A DNA stretch of 16,188 nucleotides, from the NCBI GenBank assembly GCA_022865965.1, contig JALHTS010000459.1, forward strand, positions 1-16,188, written 5' to 3'. Under the pieces are notes generated by a model. That model was not told the origin of the DNA. It worked only from the letters and a program-made list of their open reading frames with translations, and searched no databases. The DNA comes from Ignavibacteriaceae bacterium (lineage in GTDB: Bacteria > Bacteroidota > Ignavibacteria > Ignavibacteriales > Ignavibacteriaceae). Positions within the stretch are counted from its first letter, which is position 1. Each line of letters opens with the position of its first letter. Position numbers and translations under genes: made by a program. This document shows positions 4,467 through 16,188 of this stretch, piece by piece.

Positions 4467-7400
4467 ATGATAATGAAGAAAATTCTTTTAATAATATTTG
4501 TCTGTTCATATTTTATTTTCCCGCAAGCTGATACTACCCTAATATTAAGTGAAATTATGTTTATACCTTCGTCCGGAAATAATGAGTTTATTGAGATTTT
4601 TAACTTAAGTGATACTGAAAGTGTTGATTTGAATGGGTATAAGTTCAAATACTATACAGCCACACTAGATACTTTCACAGACGCAGGTTTTGGAACGGTA
4701 CTTCCACCACGTTCATATGCTATTGTATTTGAGGGCGATTACGATATCGCTACAGGAATATATGCAGGATTAATTCCCTCTAATGCATTAATATTAAAAA
4801 TATCAGATAATATTTTTGGATCACAAGGAATGGCTAATACTGAAATACGTTTTTCATGGCTTTTAACTCCTGCTAACGACACTCTTGATGTTTATACCTA
4901 TTCTCCAAACAATGCTGCTGCAATTTCAGATGAAAAAATTATCCTTAACAAAGATTCATCACAAACTAACTGGGCAAATTCACTTGTAATAAATGGTACG
5001 CCGGGATTTAAAAATTCAGTTTCACTTACTGAGTTTGATCTACAAATGGTTTCACTAAATTTTTTACCCACAGTTTTAATTCAAGACGATGATGTTACCA
5101 TTACAGCACAGGTAAAAAACCGCGGGAGCAATGTAGCGACCAATTACTCAATTGAAATCTATAATGATCTGAATTTTGATTCTATTGCAACGTCAAACGA
5201 ACTTATATATTCTCCGAGCTTTACAAATCTCAATCCAGGTGATTCAATGGAAGTACAAACTTTTCTGTATTCCTTAACTCAGGGTGAATATCAGATAATT
5301 GCTGATGTAATTTTTAATGAGGATGAAAATCCTAATAACAATAAATTAATTAAACAATTTACTGTTTATCCACCCGCCAATAACTATAATGATATTGTGA
5401 TAAATGAAATAATGTATGCACCGCTAACCGGTGAACCCGAGTGGGTGGAACTTTATAATAGAACCACTCAAACAGTTAGTATAAAATACTGGAAGATATC
5501 AGATGCCTCTTCAACAACTACACTTATACCACAAAATATTTTAGAAGATATTATAATTCCGGCAAACTCATTTATTGTAATATCTAAAGACGAGACAATA
5601 TCAAATTTTTATTCGGTTCCATCAACAATATTTGTTGCCAACCTTCCCTATCTTAACAACACAGGTGATGCTGTTGTAATTAAAGATTTAAATGGAATTG
5701 TAATCGATTCTGTTTATTATTTACCGACTTGGGGCGGAAGTGTTGGTGGAAAATCACTAGAAAGGATTTCTGTCGATGATTTAAGTAATAATCCTACAAA
5801 TTGGGGAACATCTTTAAATATCAGCAAGGCAACTCCCGGTAAAATTAATTCCATCACTCCAAAAGAAAACGATCTTACTATTTCAAAATTTTCACCAGCA
5901 CTTCCCTATTCTATTGTTGGAAATGATATTGAGTTAAAAGTTATGATCAAAAATATAGGACTTACTAATTCTGCAAATTTTAATCTTAATTTTTACGGAG
6001 ATGTTAATACTGACTCAATTCCAGAACCATCAGAATTATTAGTTTCACTTCCACAAAACGGAATATTATCCGGCGATAGTTTAGAAGTAATATATTCAAC
6101 GAATCAATTTGATGAAGGAATAAACAATTTTATTGCTTACATAGAAGATACTATTGATGATGATACATCTAATAATATTGCTTTTACAAAAGTAACCGGT
6201 GTTCAGATTAATGAAATTCGAGGTGATATTGTTATCAATGAATTTATGTTTGCCCCAATATCTCCCGAACCTGAATGGATTGAGATTTTTAACCGGAGTG
6301 ATAAAATAATCGATCTAAAAAATTACAGGATAGCAGATAACAATGATACAGTTGTTGTGATCACTCAATCTGTTTGGCTGAATCCTGGTGAATATTACGT
6401 AATTGCATCGGATTCATCAGTCAGAAATTTTTATAATATTCCTTCCGGTATTACATTCAAAACGTTACTCGCACTTAATAATACGGGCGACAAAATAATT
6501 CTTATTGATTCGCTTAACAGGATAATTGACTCACTGGAATATTTTCCTACTTGGGGAGGAAGCAACGGTAATTCACTTGAAAGAATTGATGTTGAGTTAT
6601 CTTCGATTGATTCAACTAACTGGAAAACATCAACTAGTATATTTAAAGCAACTCCCGGTTATATAAATTCGGTAACGAAAAAAGATTTTGATCTGGCTGT
6701 TACAAATATTTTGTTCAATCCGAAATTCCCGTTGAAAGGTGATGATGTTGAAATATCAGCTTTTGTAAAAAACTTAGGAAAAAATTCTGCAACATTTGAT
6801 ATTCAGCTTTTTGAAGATACAAATCTTGACTCAATACCTGATCAACTGTTTAGTCAGTTAAATCAGTTAAACCTGAATGCAGACGATTCAATTGAAATTT
6901 CATTTTCATATTTCATTAATAATCTGCAAGATATCAAGGCTTTCTTTATAAAAGTTCTATTCGATAGTGATCAGGACACTACTAATAACTACTATTACAA
7001 AACTGTTGAACCCGGATTTCCTGCACAATCAATTGTGATAAATGAAATTATGTTTACCCCGCTCGGCGGTGAGCCTGAATGGATAGAACTTTATAACAGA
7101 TCAGAAGAAGCAATTAACCTTTTAGGTTGGAGCGTGAGAGATGTTCTCACAACTCCAGCAACTGCTTTAATCAATTCCGATCTGATAATTCAACCCGGTT
7201 CGTATATTGTTTTAACAAGAGATTCATCGATACTAAATTTTCACAGATTTATTCCTTCATCAATTTTCAAAATAAGTCTTCCTGTTCTTAATAATGATAT
7301 TGACGGAGTGATCCTCAAGGATCAACGCGGGTTAACAATTGATTCTGTTCTCTATAACAGTCAGTGGGGCGGAATAAATGGTTATTCACTGGAAAGAATT

Positions 7401-9155
7401 TCTGTTGATGCACAAAGCACTTTGCCTGTTAACTGGGCTTCATCAATTGACATAGAACAAAGCACTCCCGGAAGAATCAACAGCATTACACCAAAACAAT
7501 TTGACGTAAGAATATCGGGACTAAGATTTGATCCAAGATTTCCTGTGAGCGGCGATGATGTTTTTATTATTGCAGACATTAAAAACAGCGGCACATTTAA
7601 TGCCGATAATTTTATAGTTGAATTTTATATTGATTCTGACTCCAACAATATAATTGATCTTTTGCTAAGCTCAGTTTCGTCAACAAATTTAGATGCAGGT
7701 GATTCAATACAAATTATTTCTTTATCACCAATACTAAATATTCAATCAAAAACTATTGCCGCGGTAAGAGTTATCTTTGAGTCTGATGAAGACACATTAA
7801 ATAATTATTTCGAGAGCACAGTCCAACCGGGAGAAGCACAAAATATTGTTATAATAAATGAAGTAATGTATAATCCTGCTGATGGCGAACCGGAATGGAT
7901 TGAGTTCGTGAATGCATCAGATATGACGATCAATCTTGCAAACTTCTCTGTCAGTGATGTCCTAACAACTCCGACAAAAAGCTTTATTACAACAATAGAT
8001 TTTTTTATAGAGCCTAACGAATATTTTATCATTGCTCGTGATTCAACAATTTATAATTTACATCCCGATATTGAAGCAAAAGTTTTTTATTCAAACTTTG
8101 GAACTTTAGGCAATACATCAGACGGTGTTATTATTTATGATTATCGTGATGGAATTATTGATAGCCTATTATATCATTCAAGCTGGGGAGGAAAGAAGGG
8201 ATATTCACTCGAACGTATTTCTATTAATGGTACTACAAACGACAGCTCAAACTGGTCAACTTCTCTAAATATTAATGGAAGCACACCCGGAAAAGAAAAT
8301 TCATTCTCAGGAATTCCATCCTATCAAAGAAATACGCTTATTATAAATGAGATAATGTTTGATCCGGAAACTGGTAACAGTGAATATATCGAGTTTCTCA
8401 ATCTAAATAATGATTCTGTTAATATCGGGGGATGGAGAATTGAAGATGAGAATTCAAATTTTTATAGATTGAGTGATATCAGTTTTACAATTCCATCACA
8501 ATCCTATTTTATTCTGGCATCAGACTCAACAATTTTAACACGATTTAATCTTTTTGATTACTCATACTTAACAATGGTCGGCACATCAAGTTTGGGTTTA
8601 GTAAACACAGGCGAGCTTATACTATTAAAAGACGTGAAAGGAAATGTAATTGATTCAGTTTTGTACTCTGATAATTGGCACAATAGAAACATAACTATCA
8701 CAAAGGGAAAATCTTTAGAAAGAATTAATCCGCTACTAAATGGAAACGATCCTATGAATTGGAATACAAGTGTTGATTATTCAGGTGGAACACCGGGAAA
8801 AGTGAACAGCATCTTTGCAGAAAACCTGAATAAAGAAAAGAACATTTCTGTTTCACCAAATCCATTCTCGCCGGATAATGACGGCTTTGAAGATTTTACT
8901 ATTATTAATTATAATCTTACTCAAGCAACTGCCCAGGTCCGTGTTAAAATATTCGATAATAAAGGTAGACTTTTAAGAACACTTTTAAATAACGCTCCAA
9001 GCGGGCAAAGCGGTTCAATTATTTTTGATGGACTTGATGATGACGGTCAGGTTTTGCGAATAGGAATTTACATAGTTTTTCTTGAAGCAATGAATGATAA
9101 TGCAGGTGTTGTCGAAACAATGAGAACTGTTGTGGTCGTCGCAAGAAAGTTGTAA
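4467..9155 (+). CDS. Large exported multi-domain protein: six lamin-tail domains, CARDB-like domains, C-terminal FlgD/T9SS-type domain
   Basis: A 1562-residue protein with a Sec signal peptide (MKKILLIIFVCSYFIFPQA). Six lamin-tail domains begin near residues 25, 309, 587, 855, 1127 and 1290, each opening with a variant of IVINEIMYxPxxGEPEWIELYNR; most end with SLERI...NW.TS...TPGKINS. CARDB-like Ig domains follow the first four, near 188, 467, 739 and 1011 (for example DDVTITAQVKNRG). Fifth and sixth lamin-tail domains are adjacent with no Ig domain between. The last ~100 residues (from 1459; VSPNPFSPDNDGFED, then KIFDNKGRLLRTL and DDDGQVLRIGIYIVFL) match FlgD-like Ig or type IX sorting domains. 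I infer a surface-attached or secreted structural protein. No enzyme motif is visible. The ATG at 4473 fits the signal peptide and the upstream GAG slightly better than ATG 4467. Confidence 0.93.
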   Translation: MIMKKILLIIFVCSYFIFPQADTTLILSEIMFIPSSGNNEFIEIFNLSDTESVDLNGYKFKYYTATLDTFTDAGFGTVLPPRSYAIVFEGDYDIATGIYAGLIPSNALILKISDNIFGSQGMANTEIRFSWLLTPANDTLDVYTYSPNNAAAISDEKIILNKDSSQTNWANSLVINGTPGFKNSVSLTEFDLQMVSLNFLPTVLIQDDDVTITAQVKNRGSNVATNYSIEIYNDLNFDSIATSNELIYSPSFTNLNPGDSMEVQTFLYSLTQGEYQIIADVIFNEDENPNNNKLIKQFTVYPPANNYNDIVINEIMYAPLTGEPEWVELYNRTTQTVSIKYWKISDASSTTTLIPQNILEDIIIPANSFIVISKDETISNFYSVPSTIFVANLPYLNNTGDAVVIKDLNGIVIDSVYYLPTWGGSVGGKSLERISVDDLSNNPTNWGTSLNISKATPGKINSITPKENDLTISKFSPALPYSIVGNDIELKVMIKNIGLTNSANFNLNFYGDVNTDSIPEPSELLVSLPQNGILSGDSLEVIYSTNQFDEGINNFIAYIEDTIDDDTSNNIAFTKVTGVQINEIRGDIVINEFMFAPISPEPEWIEIFNRSDKIIDLKNYRIADNNDTVVVITQSVWLNPGEYYVIASDSSVRNFYNIPSGITFKTLLALNNTGDKIILIDSLNRIIDSLEYFPTWGGSNGNSLERIDVELSSIDSTNWKTSTSIFKATPGYINSVTKKDFDLAVTNILFNPKFPLKGDDVEISAFVKNLGKNSATFDIQLFEDTNLDSIPDQLFSQLNQLNLNADDSIEISFSYFINNLQDIKAFFIKVLFDSDQDTTNNYYYKTVEPGFPAQSIVINEIMFTPLGGEPEWIELYNRSEEAINLLGWSVRDVLTTPATALINSDLIIQPGSYIVLTRDSSILNFHRFIPSSIFKISLPVLNNDIDGVILKDQRGLTIDSVLYNSQWGGINGYSLERISVDAQSTLPVNWASSIDIEQSTPGRINSITPKQFDVRISGLRFDPRFPVSGDDVFIIADIKNSGTFNADNFIVEFYIDSDSNNIIDLLLSSVSSTNLDAGDSIQIISLSPILNIQSKTIAAVRVIFESDEDTLNNYFESTVQPGEAQNIVIINEVMYNPADGEPEWIEFVNASDMTINLANFSVSDVLTTPTKSFITTIDFFIEPNEYFIIARDSTIYNLHPDIEAKVFYSNFGTLGNTSDGVIIYDYRDGIIDSLLYHSSWGGKKGYSLERISINGTTNDSSNWSTSLNINGSTPGKENSFSGIPSYQRNTLIINEIMFDPETGNSEYIEFLNLNNDSVNIGGWRIEDENSNFYRLSDISFTIPSQSYFILASDSTILTRFNLFDYSYLTMVGTSSLGLVNTGELILLKDVKGNVIDSVLYSDNWHNRNITITKGKSLERINPLLNGNDPMNWNTSVDYSGGTPGKVNSIFAENLNKEKNISVSPNPFSPDNDGFEDFTIINYNLTQATAQVRVKIFDNKGRLLRTLLNNAPSGQSGSIIFDGLDDDGQVLRIGIYIVFLEAMNDNAGVVETMRTVVVVARKL
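5392..7842 (+). repeat. Three consecutive ~270-residue lamin-tail + CARDB modules
   Basis: Within the large exported protein, lamin-tail openings at about 5392, 6225, 7029 and 7846 are spaced about 833, 804 and 817 bases. They define three full module copies; the preceding first copy (from about 4539) is more divergent. The similarity is clear in protein (INEIMYAP, INEFMFAP, INEIMFTP) but diverged in DNA, which indicates old internal duplication rather than recent tandem repeats. Confidence 0.75.
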
Positions 9156-9854: not shown

Positions 9855-9887
9855 AAAAAAAAAGGACGACGATTACTCGCCGTCCTT
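9855..9887 (-). terminator. Intrinsic terminator of the first DxDGDG protein gene
   Basis: On the minus strand AAGGACGGCG, a 6-base loop and CGTCGTCCTT form a 10-bp stem (9862-9887), followed by nine T (A-run 9855-9863 on the plus strand; the two outermost stem bases overlap it). One stem position is a G-U wobble in the minus-strand RNA but would be an A-C mismatch in the plus-strand RNA. Orientation is therefore clear. It starts 22 bases after the stop of the gene at 9910-10383. Confidence 0.88.
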
Positions 9888-9909
9888 AAAATTTATTCTT
9901 TAAGAATAA

Positions 9910-10383
9910 TTATTTTCTACCGCCTCTTTTAGTTCCACTTACGGCTTCTGGAGTAGTACAGTCTCCAGGACCATAACCTGTACCATCTTTAGGACCAACT
10001 CCATCATTTCCTGTTCCATCGCCAGGACCATATTTATTTCCACCAAATTTATTCATATTTCCTTTTTTGGCCGCCTGTTTAAGAGCGCTTGCATCTTCTG
10101 ATTTTACTGCGTTATCATTAATACCGTCCCCATCTTCATCAACAAAACTCTTTAAGGCTTTTTCTTCACCATATAATTGAGTTCTGGTCATTGTTCCTTG
10201 ACCTTCATTTACTCGAACTTCATTTCGGTTCTGTGTGGTTTCGCCTTCATTTTTAAAGTTTAGCTCAGTTTTAATTGTCTTTCCCTCTTTTGTTTTTGTG
10301 CTATCTTGAGCTAAAAGATTAGATGATACCAAAGCTATTGCAATTACTATTGCTAATAAGCTTAAAAGATTTCTTGTTTTCAT
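9910..10383 (-). CDS. Small exported protein with DxDGDG motif and GPxDGTG repeats
   Basis: 157 residues. A Sec signal peptide (MKTRNLLSLLAIVIAIALVSSNLLAQ) is followed by a charged, Thr/Glu/Asn-rich stretch. Then comes SFVDEDGDGINDN at about residue 80, an acidic loop of the calcium-binding DxDGDGxxD type (EF-hand/dockerin/TSP3-like loops). A lysine-rich piece and a glycine-rich tail follow: YGPGDGTG, VGPKDGTG and YGPGDC form three GPxD units with the only cysteine, ending GTKRGGRK. The tail recalls the GDGTGPxGxGPxTGRGxGxC pattern of DUF5320 proteins (from memory, not searched). ATG at 10383 has AAAGGGAA upstream. Transcription is predicted from the -24/-12 promoter at 10433-10447, with a strong terminator after the gene. 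It is divergent from the sensor kinase, like zraP from zraSR. The function is unknown; metal or calcium binding in the periplasm is an inference. Confidence 0.85.
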   Translation of the reverse strand: MKTRNLLSLLAIVIAIALVSSNLLAQDSTKTKEGKTIKTELNFKNEGETTQNRNEVRVNEGQGTMTRTQLYGEEKALKSFVDEDGDGINDNAVKSEDASALKQAAKKGNMNKFGGNKYGPGDGTGNDGVGPKDGTGYGPGDCTTPEAVSGTKRGGRK

Positions 10384-10432
10384 TTTAGGATTCCCTTTAT
10401 TTTGTTGTTTGTTATGTTTTGGTTTAAGTATC

Positions 10433-10447
10433 CCAATAGCCGTGCCA
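10433..10447 (-). promoter_or_regulatory. Sigma-54 (-24/-12) promoter of the first DxDGDG protein gene
   Basis: The minus strand reads TGGCACGGCTATTGG, an exact TGGCAC -24 element, five bases, then TTGG against the TTGC consensus. The invariant GG is present; at -12 GC is replaced by GG. The predicted transcript start is near 10421, giving a leader of about 38 bases with the Shine-Dalgarno AAAGGGAA. Confidence 0.85.
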
Positions 10448-10499
10448 CTATAAAAATAGGCTGAAATGACGTACTAATTCACACTTTATAATTGTACAT

Positions 10500-10537
10500 T
10501 CGACTTTATTGACGGATTAATACGACTTAATAGACGA
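10500..10537. promoter_or_regulatory. Paired dyads, predicted activator sites (UAS) for the left promoter
   Basis: Two imperfect copies of TCGAC-N6-GTCGA: TCGAC-TTTATT-GACGG (10500-10515) and ACGAC-TTAATA-GACGA (10522-10537), centres 22 bp apart. From the predicted start of the promoter at 10433-10447 they sit near -87 and -109, the usual position for NtrC-type enhancers. The same motif, number and spacing occur at 15563-15599. They also lie about 55-90 bases upstream of the kinase gene and might affect it. Confidence 0.68.
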
Positions 10538-10590
10538 ATCAAATCTATTGATATCTTATTTTATATCAAAATATTAAAGTAATTTTGTAT

Positions 10591-12618
10591 ATGAAGAATA
10601 AGTTTAAACTGAAGCCTAAAACAGTTGTTCTAATAGCAGGAATAATTGCTGTGATTATGTTCACATCATCATTTATTGAACTTAATCAAAGCAAAAAAGA
10701 AATTTTTCAACTTCTTTATGAGCATTCTTCAGCACTTATAGAATCAATTATTCAAAGCAGTGATAATACTCTTAATTCAAGTTTTGAAATTGAAGATCTT
10801 ATCGCAGACAGGCTTCTTGACAATGCCAGACTTATAAAACAATTAGACCATATTAAGTCTCTTACTAAAGATGAGTTAATTAATATTGCCAAAGAGAACA
10901 ATCTGTATCGAATCAATATTTTTGATAAAAACGGCAATCGTGTTTTAACAAATAGAGTTCCTGAACCGGGTCACATTTATGCCGAAGAAAATGTTAACAG
11001 ATATGATGAATTATCTCCAATCCTAAATGGAGAAAGAGATGAACTCATAATTGGGTTGAAAAATGCTGAATTCCAAGAAGGTGAAAGATTTGCCGTTGCA
11101 ATTTCTCGTACAAACAAAAGAGGAGCAATCATTGTTAACATTGATGCAAAAGATTTTCTCGAATTTCGAAAAAAAATTGGCATAGGAAAAATACTTCAAG
11201 AAATGACAAAGCATCCAGGAATTGAATACATAGTTTTACAGGATACAATTGGAATTCTTGCAGCCAGCGAAAGAATTGATACACTCGAAGCGATTCAAAG
11301 TTCACATTTTCTTATACGGGCTTTGCTGACAGATTCAGCATTTTCAAGAATTACTGATTTTTCTTCAGCAGAAGTTTATGAAGTTGTTAAATCATTTAAA
11401 ATGGAAGATGAGATAATTGGTCTTTATAGAATCGGCATTTCACTTGAAGATGTACGCAATGTAGAATCGCGCATTGCAAGAAGACTAATCATAATTTCCG
11501 TAATTCTCGCAGCTATTTCGGTAATTGTATTAAGTATAATTTTTACTGCACAAAATCTCAGATCAGTTTCTGAAGAGTACAGAAAATTTAAGACACTTGC
11601 TTCTTCTGTTCTTGAAAATATGGGTGAAGCAGTTATTCTTTTAGATAAGGATAAACACATCACCCTTTTTAACAAATCTTCTGAAATTCTTTTCAATGAA
11701 AAGGTAGAAAATATTATTGGGACAAATATTTTTAAATTCAAGAAAAACGTTTTAGAATTATCCGATCAGAATTTTTCCAATGTTTTCCGGACTGAAAAAT
11801 ATTTTGAAAGAGAAATCAATCTCGATAATAACATAAAATATTTGTTACTTGGCATGTCAATTATTTTTGATAATAATAATCAAGTAGAAAATTTTATTAT
11901 CGTTATTAAAGATATGACTGAAATAAAACAACTTGAAAAAGAAGCAAGAAAAAATGAAAAACTTACCGCTATGGGTGAACTTGCTTCAGGAGTTGCTCAC
12001 GAAATAAGAAACCCGATTAGTGCTATTGGAATGATTGCACAAAGATTGAATAAGGAGTTTTCTGTATCTTCACATCAAAATGAGTATAACGAAATGACCG
12101 GACTTTTAAGAAATGAAGTAAACAGGATAAACAAGATCATTACTCAGTTTTTGAGTTATGCAAAACCTTTGGATATTAAAACAGACAAAGTTGATCTGAA
12201 AAAATTCTTTCAGGAAATAAATAATCTCTTCAGTGAGCAGGCCATACAAAAAAACATCAAGTTTACGGTACAAGGTGATGACACTAAAGAATTTATTTTT
12301 GACGCTGATTTGATTAAACAGGCTCTAATGAATATCATTCAAAATGCTTTTGATGCCGTAAACGCAAATAATGAAGTAAGCATAAATTATAATTATCTTC
12401 CGGATAAGCTTATTATTGAAATAAAAGATACTGGCAAAGGTATGTCTGATAACATTCAAAAAAGAATTTTTGATCTTTATTATACTACCAGAAAAGACGG
12501 TAACGGATTAGGATTAAGTATTGCCCAAAAGATAATTTCTCAACACAACGGTTTTATTTACTTGTCAAGTTCTGTAAATAAAGGAACATATTTTAAAATA
12601 ATTTTACCAAAGCTATGA
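10591..12618 (+). CDS. Membrane sensor histidine kinase, NtrB/ZraS-like, partner of the sigma-54 activator
   Basis: 675 residues. A first membrane helix (about 12-31) and a second (about 299-321) enclose a ~265-residue extracytoplasmic sensor region with Cache-like character (for example NLYRINIFDKNGNRV); the ligand is unknown. Next come a PAS domain (about 335-445, NMGEAVILLDKDKHITLFNKS), the phosphorylated His470 in GVAHEIRNP, and a HATPase domain with N585 (N box), DTGKGM (613-618) and GNGLGL (637-642). All catalytic motifs are intact. I chose ATG at 10591 rather than TTG at 10585; the Shine-Dalgarno is weak either way. The stop overlaps the response-regulator start by four bases (ATGA), so the pair is coupled. 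It is divergent from the exported DxDGDG protein gene, whose promoter its partner probably activates. Confidence 0.94.
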   Translation: MKNKFKLKPKTVVLIAGIIAVIMFTSSFIELNQSKKEIFQLLYEHSSALIESIIQSSDNTLNSSFEIEDLIADRLLDNARLIKQLDHIKSLTKDELINIAKENNLYRINIFDKNGNRVLTNRVPEPGHIYAEENVNRYDELSPILNGERDELIIGLKNAEFQEGERFAVAISRTNKRGAIIVNIDAKDFLEFRKKIGIGKILQEMTKHPGIEYIVLQDTIGILAASERIDTLEAIQSSHFLIRALLTDSAFSRITDFSSAEVYEVVKSFKMEDEIIGLYRIGISLEDVRNVESRIARRLIIISVILAAISVIVLSIIFTAQNLRSVSEEYRKFKTLASSVLENMGEAVILLDKDKHITLFNKSSEILFNEKVENIIGTNIFKFKKNVLELSDQNFSNVFRTEKYFEREINLDNNIKYLLLGMSIIFDNNNQVENFIIVIKDMTEIKQLEKEARKNEKLTAMGELASGVAHEIRNPISAIGMIAQRLNKEFSVSSHQNEYNEMTGLLRNEVNRINKIITQFLSYAKPLDIKTDKVDLKKFFQEINNLFSEQAIQKNIKFTVQGDDTKEFIFDADLIKQALMNIIQNAFDAVNANNEVSINYNYLPDKLIIEIKDTGKGMSDNIQKRIFDLYYTTRKDGNGLGLSIAQKIISQHNGFIYLSSSVNKGTYFKIILPKL

Positions 12619-13991
12619 AGGACTATTCCATATTAATTATAGATGATGAGGAATCGCAGAGAAATGTTCTCAGTGGTTATCTTCAAAAAAAAGGTTTTAA
12701 AATTTTTTCTGCTTCATCGGGCAGCGCAGGAGTTGAATTAGCAAAAAATAATATGATCGATATAGTTTTATCCGATTATAAAATGCCCGATAAAACCGGA
12801 CTCGAAGTACTGGAAGAAGTTAAAAGAATAAATCCCGAAATGAGTTTTGTTATTCTAACCGCATACGGAACTGTGGAAAATGCTGTTAAAGCAATGCGGC
12901 TTGGTGCTTATGATTATATATCAAAACCTGTTGATCTCGACGAACTTGATCTTTTAATTGAAAGAATTATTGAAACAAAAAATCTTCGTTCTGAAATAAA
13001 GCTTTTAAGAACTCAGCTCTTCGATAAATTTAAGATTGATTCTATTATTTCAAACTCGCCAAAAATGGAGGAAGTTCTCAGCGTTTCATCAAGAGCTGCT
13101 GATAGCAAGGCAACTATTTTAATTACGGGTGAAAGTGGAACAGGAAAAGAAGTTTTGGCAAGAGCAATTCACTTCATAAGTTCCAGAAAGAATCAACCCT
13201 TTATCCCCGTAAACATTCCTGCACTTCCCGAAACTTTACTTGAGAGCGAATTATTTGGACACGAAAAAGGCGCATTTACCGGTGCAGAAAAATTAAAGAA
13301 GGGAAGATTTGAGCTTGCAGATAAAGGTACAATCTTTCTCGATGAAATTGGCGATGTCCCTATAAATCTTCAGGTTACACTTCTAAGAGTTCTACAGGAA
13401 CAAAAGATAGAAAGACTTGGCGGTACAGAAAATATAAACATTGATGTAAGAATAATTACGGCAACTCATCAGAATCTTGAGGAAAAAATTAAGGAAGGAA
13501 CTTTCAGAGAAGATCTCTTCTACAGACTGAATATAGTTTCAATAAATATTCCTCCTTTACGTGAAAGACGGGAAGATATTCTTCCTCTTATTGAATATTT
13601 CATCACAAGTTATGCAAAGGAAAATAGTCGGGAAAAAGTTGAAATATCAAAAGAAGCAGTTGATTTGTTATTAAAGTATAATTATCCCGGCAATGTTAGA
13701 GAACTTGAAAATATAATTGAAAGAGCAGTTGTTCTTTGCAGAGATAACATTATTACTCTTAATGATATTGCTGACAGTGTTAAAGGATTAAAGAAAGAAT
13801 CGATGCTGGCTCAATCAGATACGGAAACATTGATTGAACAAGTGGAAAGACTTGAAAAGAAATTAATATTTGATGCGTTGAGCAAATCCAACGGTAATCA
13901 GACACTGGCAGCTAAAATGCTTGGATTAACTGAACGAAATATTCGTTATAAAATTCAGAAATACGGAATAAAGAAAAAAGAAATAACCTAA
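12615..13991 (+). CDS. NtrC-family sigma-54-dependent response regulator
   Basis: 458 residues in three domains. The receiver (1-120) has acidic D10/D11, phospho-acceptor D54, T82 and K104. The AAA+ domain has Walker A GESGTGKE (172-179), the GAFTGA loop that contacts sigma-54 (219-224), Walker B with D243/E244, and RLNIVSINIPPLRERREDI. A C-terminal Fis-type helix-turn-helix lies at about 400-455 (SKSNGNQTLAAKMLGLTERNIRYKIQKYG). Every residue needed for a working activator is visible. It is translationally coupled to the kinase. The likely targets are the two -24/-12 promoters with TCGAC-N6-GTCGA dyads that flank the block, an inference from proximity and site layout. Its stop codon overlaps that of the convergent outer-membrane gene (13988-13991). 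ZraR- or AtoC-like names would be over-specific. Confidence 0.96.
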   Translation: MKDYSILIIDDEESQRNVLSGYLQKKGFKIFSASSGSAGVELAKNNMIDIVLSDYKMPDKTGLEVLEEVKRINPEMSFVILTAYGTVENAVKAMRLGAYDYISKPVDLDELDLLIERIIETKNLRSEIKLLRTQLFDKFKIDSIISNSPKMEEVLSVSSRAADSKATILITGESGTGKEVLARAIHFISSRKNQPFIPVNIPALPETLLESELFGHEKGAFTGAEKLKKGRFELADKGTIFLDEIGDVPINLQVTLLRVLQEQKIERLGGTENINIDVRIITATHQNLEEKIKEGTFREDLFYRLNIVSINIPPLRERREDILPLIEYFITSYAKENSREKVEISKEAVDLLLKYNYPGNVRELENIIERAVVLCRDNIITLNDIADSVKGLKKESMLAQSDTETLIEQVERLEKKLIFDALSKSNGNQTLAAKMLGLTERNIRYKIQKYGIKKKEIT

Positions 13992-15082
13992 AAACCATAA
14001 CTTATAGAGGCTGCATAAAGATTATTTTTATAATCGTAAAAGTAATCGTTAGAAGTATTTTGAATATAATTCCAGCCTGCTTCAAGAGATAATCCATTGA
14101 CCATAAAACTCAAATCAAAGTTTGCATTAATACCAAAAGCTAATTGCTTATCTTCGCGTAAATAGTCTAACGAGTTTCCTTCTGTATCCGCAACAGGAAG
14201 CGAAGTAAAGTTTCTGGTTGAATACTTTCCTTCAATACCGACGAGAACATATTCGTTGAAATAATGACTTAATGCCCCGCCATAAGTAAAACCATCATTA
14301 GAATACATATCGTTAAAAATTTCTTCTTCGAAAAAAATAAAATCTTCCCTATTGATAAAATATCTGCTTTCGGAAGCAGGATTTTCTCTTAATTGCACAT
14401 AGGCGTTAATCCTTGTTCTATCAGTTAACATCTGCCCAACATTAAACGTAAAGATAAATAGGGTCGCATCGTTTGCATAATCAGGTATTTTATATTTTAC
14501 AAAATAATTTTTAAGATTTAACTCGCCGCTGCCAATAATAGTTGTTCCTGAGGCAAAATTTGATATCCATCTGGCAAAAAATTTGTTTTCATAATGTGAG
14601 AAAAGTGGAAATTTTTCGAAATTATTTCTATAAAAAACATACCCTGCTAACAGATAATTATTTTCAACTACAGTATGCCGATAATTAATATATGCCGAAA
14701 GCTGATCTAAATCATAAATATCAAATCCATTGCTATTATTTCTTAAAAGGAAATTTACTCCCATATTAAGAGGATTATCATCAACAGAAAATAAGTGAGT
14801 ATTGACTATACCAAACTTATGTGAGTTTGAATTTTTAAAGTCATTTTTTATGAAGCTGCTAAATTCTCCCTGATAATAAATCTGAAAATTATTTAACTCA
14901 CTCTCTACATTGTAAGCGGTTTCAAGCGAAAAAGTGTTGATAAAATCTTTTGTTTGTTCATAGTTATTAAAAATATTATCATCATAGTATCCTTCATAGG
15001 AAACGAAAAGATTAAACTGCGCAAATAATGATGATGAAGATAAAAGAATGATGAGGAGGGTACTAAAAATGTAATGTTTCAT
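13988..15082 (-). CDS. Outer-membrane beta-barrel protein
   Basis: 364 residues with a Sec signal peptide (MKHYIFSTLLIILLSSSSLFA, then QFNLF). The mature part is a series of alternating-hydrophobic strands rich in aromatic residues (FSLETAYNV, NNFQIYYQGEF, LAFGINANFDLSFMV, LSLEAGWNYI). The last strand, YAASISYGF, ends in phenylalanine, the usual signal for outer-membrane assembly. I recognise no specific family; transport, surface anchoring or adhesion are all possible. It lies 29 bases downstream of the second DxDGDG gene on the same strand with no terminator between, so it is probably transcribed from the sigma-54 promoter at 15500-15514. It converges with the response regulator and shares four bases with it at the stops. 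Confidence 0.8.
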   Translation of the reverse strand: MKHYIFSTLLIILLSSSSLFAQFNLFVSYEGYYDDNIFNNYEQTKDFINTFSLETAYNVESELNNFQIYYQGEFSSFIKNDFKNSNSHKFGIVNTHLFSVDDNPLNMGVNFLLRNNSNGFDIYDLDQLSAYINYRHTVVENNYLLAGYVFYRNNFEKFPLFSHYENKFFARWISNFASGTTIIGSGELNLKNYFVKYKIPDYANDATLFIFTFNVGQMLTDRTRINAYVQLRENPASESRYFINREDFIFFEEEIFNDMYSNDGFTYGGALSHYFNEYVLVGIEGKYSTRNFTSLPVADTEGNSLDYLREDKQLAFGINANFDLSFMVNGLSLEAGWNYIQNTSNDYFYDYKNNLYAASISYGF

Positions 15083-15111
15083 ATAATGTTGCTCTGATTT
15101 TAATTTTTACT

Positions 15112-15474
15112 TCAGATACTATTTATTAGAAGAGAAGGTCGTCCGCCACCAGTTCCCCCGCTTCCCTTCTTTTTTGTCGATCTTTTATTAAGTTTATCAA
15201 AACTAAGTTTATCAAAACTAAGTTTATCAAAACTCATTCCGCCTTGCCTGTTATCACTGATACCGTCACCATCTTTATCAATAAAAACATCCTTCTTTTT
15301 TCTTTCACTCAGACGGTCCTTTTCTCCAGAGTCTGCTTTATCCACAGAATCTTCTTTATCCTGAATTTGCTCCTTTTGAATTTCCTGATTTTTGTTTATT
15401 GATGTATCGGGAATCTCGTAACCATTTGCATAGCTGAAAGAAGCAAATAAAAATATTATTACTAATGTCTTCAT
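15112..15474 (-). CDS. Second small exported DxDGDG protein with SFDKL repeats
   Basis: 120 residues. The signal peptide MKTLVIIFLFASFSYA is followed by a highly charged linker rich in K, D, E and Q. VFIDKDGDGISDN (about residues 72-84) matches the SFVDEDGDGINDN loop of the protein at 9910-10383. Three perfect SFDKL repeats follow, then a basic and glycine-rich tail (TKKKGSGGTGGGRPSLL). An in-frame upstream ATG (15501) would add MYICVKENK before the signal peptide, but it sits inside the -12 element. I chose ATG at 15474, which has AAGGAA upstream and follows the predicted transcript start by 14 bases. It is probably cotranscribed with the outer-membrane barrel gene. No function is known. The shared loop, shared promoter type and shared upstream sites make it a sister of the protein at 9910-10383. 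Confidence 0.83.
   Translation of the reverse strand: MKTLVIIFLFASFSYANGYEIPDTSINKNQEIQKEQIQDKEDSVDKADSGEKDRLSERKKKDVFIDKDGDGISDNRQGGMSFDKLSFDKLSFDKLNKRSTKKKGSGGTGGGRPSLLINSI
15190..15234 (-). repeat. Three perfect 15-bp tandem repeats
   Basis: AAGTTTATCAAAACT (plus strand) occurs three times without change at 15190-15204, 15205-15219 and 15220-15234. It encodes SFDKL three times in frame in the second DxDGDG protein. The identity at DNA level suggests recent expansion by slippage, and a change in copy number would keep the frame. Confidence 0.97.
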
Positions 15475-15499
15475 TTTATTTTCCTTAACACAAATATAC

Positions 15500-15514
15500 A
15501 CAAACGCTGTGCCG
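15500..15514 (-). promoter_or_regulatory. Sigma-54 (-24/-12) promoter of the second DxDGDG/outer-membrane operon
   Basis: The minus strand reads CGGCACAGCGTTTGT: CGGCAC, five bases, TTGT, against TGGCAC-N5-TTGC. The -24 GG is intact and the -12 GC is GT, so it is weaker than the copy at 10433-10447. The predicted start near 15488 gives a 14-base leader that holds the Shine-Dalgarno AAGGAA (15481-15486). Confidence 0.72.
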
Positions 15515-15562
15515 TGTAAAAATATCTTATATAGCTTTTATTAGAAGATTTTAAACTTATAA

Positions 15563-15599
15563 TCGACAATTTAGTTTAATGCCTCGACAATATAGTCGA
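15563..15599. promoter_or_regulatory. Paired dyads, predicted activator sites (UAS) for the right promoter
   Basis: TCGAC-AATATA-GTCGA (15584-15599) is a perfect dyad. TCGAC-AATTTA-GTTTA (15563-15578) is a half-degenerate copy. Centres are 21 bp apart and lie near -83 and -104 from the predicted start, almost the same geometry as at 10500-10537. Confidence 0.72.
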
Positions 15600-15812: not shown

Positions 15813-15842
15813 AAAACTGCTAAAAAATAGCAGCTATTTTTT
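15813..15842 (-). terminator. Terminator-like hairpin at the end of the right-hand kinase gene
   Basis: On the minus strand CTGCTA, a 5-base T loop and TAGCAG (15817-15833) form a 6-bp stem followed by TTTTCTT. It begins directly after the TAG stop. An overlapping alternative, AAAAAATAG-CTG-CTATTTTTT (15822-15842), includes the stop codon and cannot form at the same time. Either would separate the kinase from the control region downstream. Confidence 0.55.
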
Positions 15843-16188
15843 CTTAATGGGAAGAATAATACAGAAGCAAGTCCCCGGTTTATCAACTGTTCCAAGATGT
15901 GAAGGACTTTTGACTTTTATAGTTCCTTTATGCCTTTCAATAATTTGTTTAACAACAGGAAGCCCTATACCCGCTCCTTCGTATTCACTTAATTTAATAT
16001 TGGAACCCCGGTAAAATTCTTTAAATATTTTATATTCCTCATTTTCTGGTATTCCAATTCCATTATCACAAACATTTATTATCAAATCATCGTCTTTATT
16101 TGCAAGAGTAACTTCAATAATTCCTTCAAAATCTACATATTTAATAGCATTGTTGATTAGATTCGATATTGCAATTTGCATTAAAAAA
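15834..16188 (-). CDS. Sensor histidine kinase, C-terminal ATPase domain (runs off the right edge)
   Basis: About 118 codons of a HATPase domain, open to the window edge, so the start is outside. The ATP-binding motifs are intact: N box SNLINNAIKYV, G1 DNGIGIP, the F box FKEFYRGS and G2 GAGIGLPVVKQII, ending CFCIILPIKKK. It resembles the HisKA/HATPase kinases of phytochrome-like or PAS/GAF sensor proteins (FYRGS, LPVVKQIIERHKG) more than the NtrB-like kinase at 10591-12618. The sensor part and partner regulator are not visible. A terminator-like hairpin follows immediately, so it is probably not part of the sigma-54 block. Confidence 0.93.
   Translation of the reverse strand, partial: FLMQIAISNLINNAIKYVDFEGIIEVTLANKDDDLIINVCDNGIGIPENEEYKIFKEFYRGSNIKLSEYEGAGIGLPVVKQIIERHKGTIKVKSPSHLGTVDKPGTCFCIILPIKKK

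Follow-up and report, generated by a model that had tools for sequence, protein, structure and literature searches.

Among described bacterial regulatory systems, the nearest in arrangement to the locus studied here is ZraPSR of E. coli and Salmonella, a sigma-54-dependent two-component pair beside the gene for a small exported protein, which is divergent to the pair. Three further comparisons are useful: AtoSC, which supplies the best NCBIfam models for both members of the pair considered below; the Slam proteins of type XI secretion (PF04575, DUF560), where the gene for a barrel likewise adjoins that for a small exported protein; and the solved protein MJ0754 (PF09968, DUF2202). According to the available part of PMC7657598, ZraR directly targets zraP, zraSR, and mgtA. 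Here we analyze a stretch of 16,188 nucleotides (contig JALHTS010000459.1, referred to as the window) from the 3.03-Mb, 741-contig genome of an Ignavibacteriaceae bacterium of the order Ignavibacteriales, in which genes for a sensor histidine kinase and an NtrC-type response regulator are flanked by genes for two exported proteins (EF-A and EF-B) and an outer-membrane beta-barrel, and appear to form the core of a sigma-54 regulon. Among the papers listed by our searches of a mainly open-access literature, we saw no account of such a regulon in this lineage, nor any literature on DUF2202, on MJ0754, or on the term Ignavibacteri combined with sigma-54 and EF-hand; the available part of the main text of PMC12316311 makes no mention of Ignavibacteri, EF-hand, or porin.

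ZraPSR is the nearest system in layout and logic, but on sequence grounds both membership features that were tested fail. The kinase scores 182.7 bits against a cut-off of 479 (NF007688) and the regulator 399.1 against 760 (NF007689), far under the ZraS and ZraR equivalog cut-offs, and neither EF-A nor EF-B matched any ZraP-related model in Pfam or NCBIfam. An earlier note, made from the sequence of the window alone, had likened the locus to zraP/zraSR; the likeness holds for the layout and does not extend to protein family membership. The system here also differs from ZraPSR in adding an outer-membrane barrel and DUF2202 lipoproteins, and a ZraP-like role in zinc handling, which we considered, is unsupported. 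The kinase and regulator do not belong to AtoSC either, reaching 255.1 bits (NF008468) and 519.5 bits (NF008469) against AtoS and AtoC cut-offs of 646 and 714.

The two central genes overlap by four bases, as the earlier note had read them. The kinase (10591–12618, plus strand) probably starts at ATG 10591 rather than at TTG 10585, where its open reading frame (ORF) opens, and comprises a periplasmic double-Cache sensor between two membrane segments (assigned by eye), followed by PAS, HisKA, and HATPase domains. Across 22 members the sensor region matched sCache_3_2 in 13 and dCache_3 in 6 (E up to 0.1), and the PDB matches listed for the sensor are mostly dCache sensors of kinases and chemoreceptors, in agreement with a double-Cache periplasmic fold; the sensor profile, searched against PDB sequences, gave no match. 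The regulator (12615–13991, plus strand) has a receiver domain (PF00072, 98.9 bits) whose phosphoacceptor aspartate and switch residues (D11, D54, T82, and K104) are invariant in 21 sequences, a sigma-54 AAA+ domain (PF00158, 240.3 bits), and a Fis-type helix-turn-helix (PF02954, 46.1 bits). Its GAFTGA loop is intact, as had been noted, and reads GSFTGA or GSYTGA in some orthologues. The sigma factor that the promoters require is encoded by rpoN at 1460–2929 on the minus strand (TIGR02395, 417.7 bits; cut-off 277.35), approximately 7 kb away from the regulon within the same window.

Both flanking transcription units lie on the minus strand. EF-A (9910–10383) encodes an exported protein of 157 amino acids (signal peptide by eye) with the motif FVDEDGDGINDN and a glycine-rich tail, GPGDGTG/RGGRK. 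On the other side, EF-B (15112–15474), a small exported protein with the motif FIDKDGDGISDN, is the first gene of a presumed operon with the barrel gene (13988–15082), whose stop overlaps that of the regulator by four bases. The ORF of EF-B extends to 15501, but its first GTG sits inside the -12 element, and the protein therefore probably starts at ATG 15474.

Each of the two units is preceded by a -24/-12 element, and the two elements claimed around the kinase/regulator pair are indeed present: TGGCACGGCTATTG for EF-A (10434–10447) and CGGCACAGCGTTTG for EF-B and the barrel (15501–15514), both on the minus strand. These are the only matches to YGGCAC-N5-TTG in the whole window, where 0.08 would be expected. 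Upstream of each element lie two dyads on the same strand, with centers at -73.5 (CCGTCAATAAAGTCGA, 10500–10515) and -95.5 (TCGTCTATTAAGTCGT, 10522–10537) from the -12 G for EF-A, and at -69.5 (TAAACTAAATTGTCGA, 15563–15578) and -90.5 (TCGACTATATTGTCGA, 15584–15599) for EF-B and the barrel. The dyads had been described as TCGAC-N6-GTCGA; their positions stand, and their distances agree with the earlier values within 2 bases after adding about 12 bases to reach the transcript start, but the perfect form (10/10 bases) occurs only at 15584–15599, the other three matching at 8 of 10 bases. By themselves the dyads are weak evidence inside the window, where they are mildly enriched (7 matches with at most two mismatches against 2.76 expected, with 3 of 200 shuffles reaching 7); their significance derives from position and conservation, not from in-window enrichment.

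At the scale of the genome, the arrangement is specific. A dyad-pair pattern allowing two mismatches occurs at three places in the 3.03 Mb, and its reversed control at none; the places are the EF-A site, the only one in the window, and sites at C460 and C492 (the EF-B pair, spaced at 21 bp, is missed by the fixed pattern). The C460 and C492 sites both precede a -24/-12 element, weaker at C460 (TGGTAC), and a gene for a DUF2202 lipoprotein; these unlinked genes with composite promoters are L069 9727–10338 (plus strand) and L110 (C460 of the source genome, G000; minus strand, promoter at 1255). The regulon had been thought self-contained, which it is not, because the promoter is also present at these two genes, distant from the window; the predicted regulon comprises at least four transcription units. 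A DUF2202 relative matches MJ0754 at 7.6e-46, the unlinked lipoproteins are members of the same family, and in three related loci (L041, L044, and L047) a DUF2202 gene directly follows EF-A. In distinction from MJ0754, the DUF2202 proteins here are judged by eye to be lipoproteins, and their control by sigma-54 is predicted; we take the family to be ferritin-like. A further DUF2202 match lies upstream on C460 (2307–2783), interrupted by stops. A looser pattern, GTCG-N50-80-YGGCAY-N5-TTG, did better than its reversed control in no more than 15 of 59 genomes, and we rest no argument on it. In the source genome a similar loose pattern matched 6 times and its control 5 times; for a third variant the figures were 9 and 7, true sites included.

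Of 59 genomes searched, 49 have a match to the kinase at E 1e-30, often through the shared kinase core alone, and 24 have a near full-length match. Loci were taken for the 23 kinase-bearing genomes besides the window, of which 22 (L041–L062) were analyzed after one 3-kb contig was left out. EF-A, the regulator, the barrel, and EF-B recur around the kinase in divergent or tandem order, with a barrel gene near the kinase in 17 of the 22 loci. By whole-genome search, the barrel is present in 19 of 24 kinase-bearing genomes and in none of the 35 others (Fisher 3e-11), and DUF2202 in 10 of 24 and 2 of 35 (12 of 59 in all; Fisher 0.002). We scored composite promoters, defined as a -24/-12 element scored together with an upstream dyad and passing at 16 or more. 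Such promoters precede 27 of 33 DxDGDG genes (two of the 33, L045 4246, which is glyoxalase-like by eye, and L055 5140, are false by motif yet counted), compared with 6 of 250 control upstream regions and 1 of 6600 mononucleotide shuffles. The six passing controls themselves look like true targets, because they are the kinase genes of L052 and L055, system-adjacent DUF2202 lipoprotein genes in L054 and L061, and small-protein genes in L045 and L049. At least one composite site is found in 18 of the 22 related loci. Conservation of the dyads and -24/-12 elements, on which the proposal had been made to depend, is thus strong within the order. Together with the genome-wide specificity of the sites and the co-occurrence of the genes, it supports the claim that the regulator would control both exported-protein genes and the barrel operon.

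The spacing of the dyads provides a further line of evidence. In 21 genomes, 67 dyads from 44 promoters cluster at approximately -61, -71, -81, -91, and -103 from the -12 G, and a free scan of periods from 8 to 14 bp peaks at 10.5 bp with R 0.68, where the maximum of 2000 uniform simulations was 0.43. When all sites of a genome were moved together, which allows for relatedness within a genome (relatedness between genomes remains in the phasing statistics), the observed value was reached in 0 of 20,000 trials; the means of the 21 genomes give R 0.82, and the two dyads of a pair are spaced at 22 bp in 16 of 23 pairs. Excluded from this set were L031 and L032 (contigs shared with L042 and L043), repeat promoter calls at L032 6821 and L109 1307, and, as spurious, L053, L091, and L054 12471; the final test takes the kinase-side row of L033 as a repeat of that locus's EF-A dyads, and L088 as part of genome G005. 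Phasing of this kind is the trace that would be expected of a DNA-looping activator bound on one face, and the site positions may accordingly be read as a natural record, across 21 genomes, of helical-face constraint on sigma-54 enhancers.

A search of the phylum (296 genomes) with the sensor profile gave relatives in 44, and 27 of these belong to a single family, f24. This family is a green sulphur lineage, because the chlorosome protein family PF02043 is present in all 12 of its genomes tested and in none of six others. Seventeen of 35 matched genomes outside the order were taken (12 from the green sulphur family and 5 from the same class); their loci have a barrel gene near the kinase in 12 cases and DxDGDG genes in 11. 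Composite promoters precede 5 of 17 DxDGDG genes (L174, L175, L182, L184, and L185), compared with 6 of 229 other genes (Fisher 3e-4); the DxDGDG gene of L171 also has a dyad and -24/-12 element, missed in this count through a misplaced ORF start. In four green sulphur loci a cytochrome c gene near the kinase bears a dyad and -24/-12 element (L176 5812–6300, L177 5607–6107, L178 9133–9654, and L186 5823–6242; identified by Pfam in L177 and by eye in the others). The cytochrome c gene is followed by a gene for a DUF4405 membrane protein, found by Pfam in L176 and L177 and elsewhere by eye or not seen. The system is thus found in related bacteria up to and including the green sulphur bacteria, with its binding sites and many of its target genes recurring.

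The genes, the promoters, and the dyads can be read from sequence, as can the way in which these are conserved, phased, and distributed over the genome. From these patterns we infer binding by the regulator, the direction of control, and the existence of a signal, and we regard the following circuit as very probable. The double-Cache kinase would sense a periplasmic signal and phosphorylate its NtrC-type partner, an oligomer of which would bind two dyads that share a face of the DNA and are separated by about two helical turns, approximately 60–105 bp upstream of the -24/-12 element; looping to sigma-54 RNA polymerase at that element would then drive expression of envelope proteins. The units activated would be EF-A, EF-B with the barrel, and the unlinked DUF2202 lipoprotein genes, joined by the kinase gene in some relatives and by the cytochrome c and DUF4405 pair in green sulphur bacteria. 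The explanation as a whole seems to us probable, if less secure than the circuit. It would supply predictions of the operator, the regulator, and the regulon of a sigma-54 two-component system in this lineage, and would bring together several unnamed families of envelope proteins in a single pathway.

Several observations weigh against this explanation. The dyad-pair pattern was written after its three places were known, so that its force lies in the absence of other places. The counts are not independent, because the loci are related by descent, and four loci (L046, L053, L060, and L062) have no composite site, although L053 runs off its contig. Outside the order only 5 of the 17 DxDGDG upstream regions pass, and two of the six other passes there look spurious. 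The recognition helix of the regulator occurs in two forms, ERN[IL]RYK and ERHLRSR, despite a similar-looking dyad. Ten green sulphur dyads are in mutual phase (R 0.82) at an offset of about 4 bp from those of Ignavibacteriales; a single helical phase for all taxa was rejected on account of this offset (loci L175–L186). On the side of function, no DxDGDG protein of the window or of the relatives tested has a Pfam family over cut-off, and the case for metal binding consequently comes from the motif, which we take to be metal-binding; no gene among those at the system points to a specific signal.

The physiological role is much less certain than the circuit. Our tentative preference is for envelope metal or redox homeostasis, since DUF2202, cytochrome c, and the acidic DxDGDG loops are likely to be metal- or redox-related in character; as a specific assignment, it stands rather below an even chance. 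Its main rival, somewhat less likely, is that the barrel serves secretion or the matrix, in which case the regulon would assemble a surface or matrix structure, the barrel exporting either EF-B (in the manner of SlipAM or Slam) or a polysaccharide (in the manner of PgaA or EpsL), and the DxDGDG proteins acting as calcium-dependent surface proteins. The predicted model of the barrel has 16 strands (mean predicted local distance difference test score 88), beginning at residue 20 directly after the signal helix, and PgaA likewise has 16 (available part of PMC8406197). The SlipAM family PF04575 is over its cut-off in 3 of 5 barrel orthologues tested, matches 1 of 18 barrel members at 4.3e-9, and is precomputed on 21 of 120 listed barrel homologues; a green sulphur orthologue matches EpsL, though at 27.8 bits, far under the cut-off of 275; and the EF-B and barrel genes adjoin and overlap in L045–L048. 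On the other hand, the window barrel itself reaches no Pfam cut-off. It also has no TPR match, which, with its 16 predicted strands against the 14 of Slam (same part of PMC8406197), sets it apart from Slam. Neither EF-A nor EF-B has a Pfam family over cut-off, and the best fold matches among those listed for the barrel, TpsB transporters and porins, show no function. PgaA chains were absent among the best 50 matches listed in each of two barrel fold searches, which excludes nothing, and two retron chains from a PDB sequence search with the barrel profile (E 0.03–0.05) were taken as chance.

The two roles could also be combined. In an ancestral envelope system of Ignavibacteria and Chlorobia, one sigma-54 switch would couple a dedicated export route, a TPR-less SlipAM-like barrel of 16 modeled strands displaying DxDGDG proteins, to redox partners (periplasmic DUF2202 or cytochrome c/DUF4405), forming a metal-handling cell-surface module unlike any named; we consider this a speculative and distinctly improbable reading.

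Still less likely is that the sites are real but serve another sigma-54 activator, the adjacent pair controlling something else. Related genomes do contain other kinases of similar core, with additional partial matches in many of them, but in L052 and L055 the kinase gene bears the same composite promoter, a composite site lies beside the pair in 18 of 22 loci within the order and in 10 of 17 outside it, and the barrel occurs only with the kinase among the 59 genomes. Least likely of all, by a slight degree, is that the dyads at 10500–10537 chiefly autoregulate the divergent kinase/regulator operon with EF-A incidental: they do lie approximately 50–90 bp upstream of ATG 10591, and in two relatives the kinase gene itself has a composite site, but it is EF-A that the -24/-12 element faces, and EF-B and the unlinked DUF2202 genes are preceded by the same promoter unit.

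Several neighboring features were also recorded. In L045 an exported protein of 134 amino acids (10167–10571, minus strand), which carries a composite promoter and has no match in Pfam, NCBIfam, or PDB under the thresholds applied, has the motif LGP-x-W-[FY]-W in common with an exported protein of 157–172 amino acids in L055 (5140–5658, minus strand), likewise without a family match. Small proteins with composite promoters in L048 (near 11700) and L049 (4799–5029) have in common a NIVWA-x-x-EDFP motif. Two distant taxa have cytochrome bd genes, identified by eye, next to the system (L051 11366–13792, minus strand; L170 9534–11881, plus strand), and other neighbors recurring by eye are NifX-like, DUF134-like, OsmC-like, and sulphide-quinone-reductase-like (L052 1099–4530, L059 10706–11080, L176 11521–14892, and L185 12438–15191). 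At the end of the window, 15834–16187 (minus strand) is a histidine-kinase fragment whose relative in L041 is a full kinase with a PilS-like match below cut-off, adjoining an iron-only hydrogenase gene. Finally, 4467–9155 (plus strand) encodes a protein of 1562 amino acids with six lamin-tail domain stretches, CARDB domains, a FlgD-like domain, and a CHU_C match that falls under its cut-off, a hint of type IX secretion.

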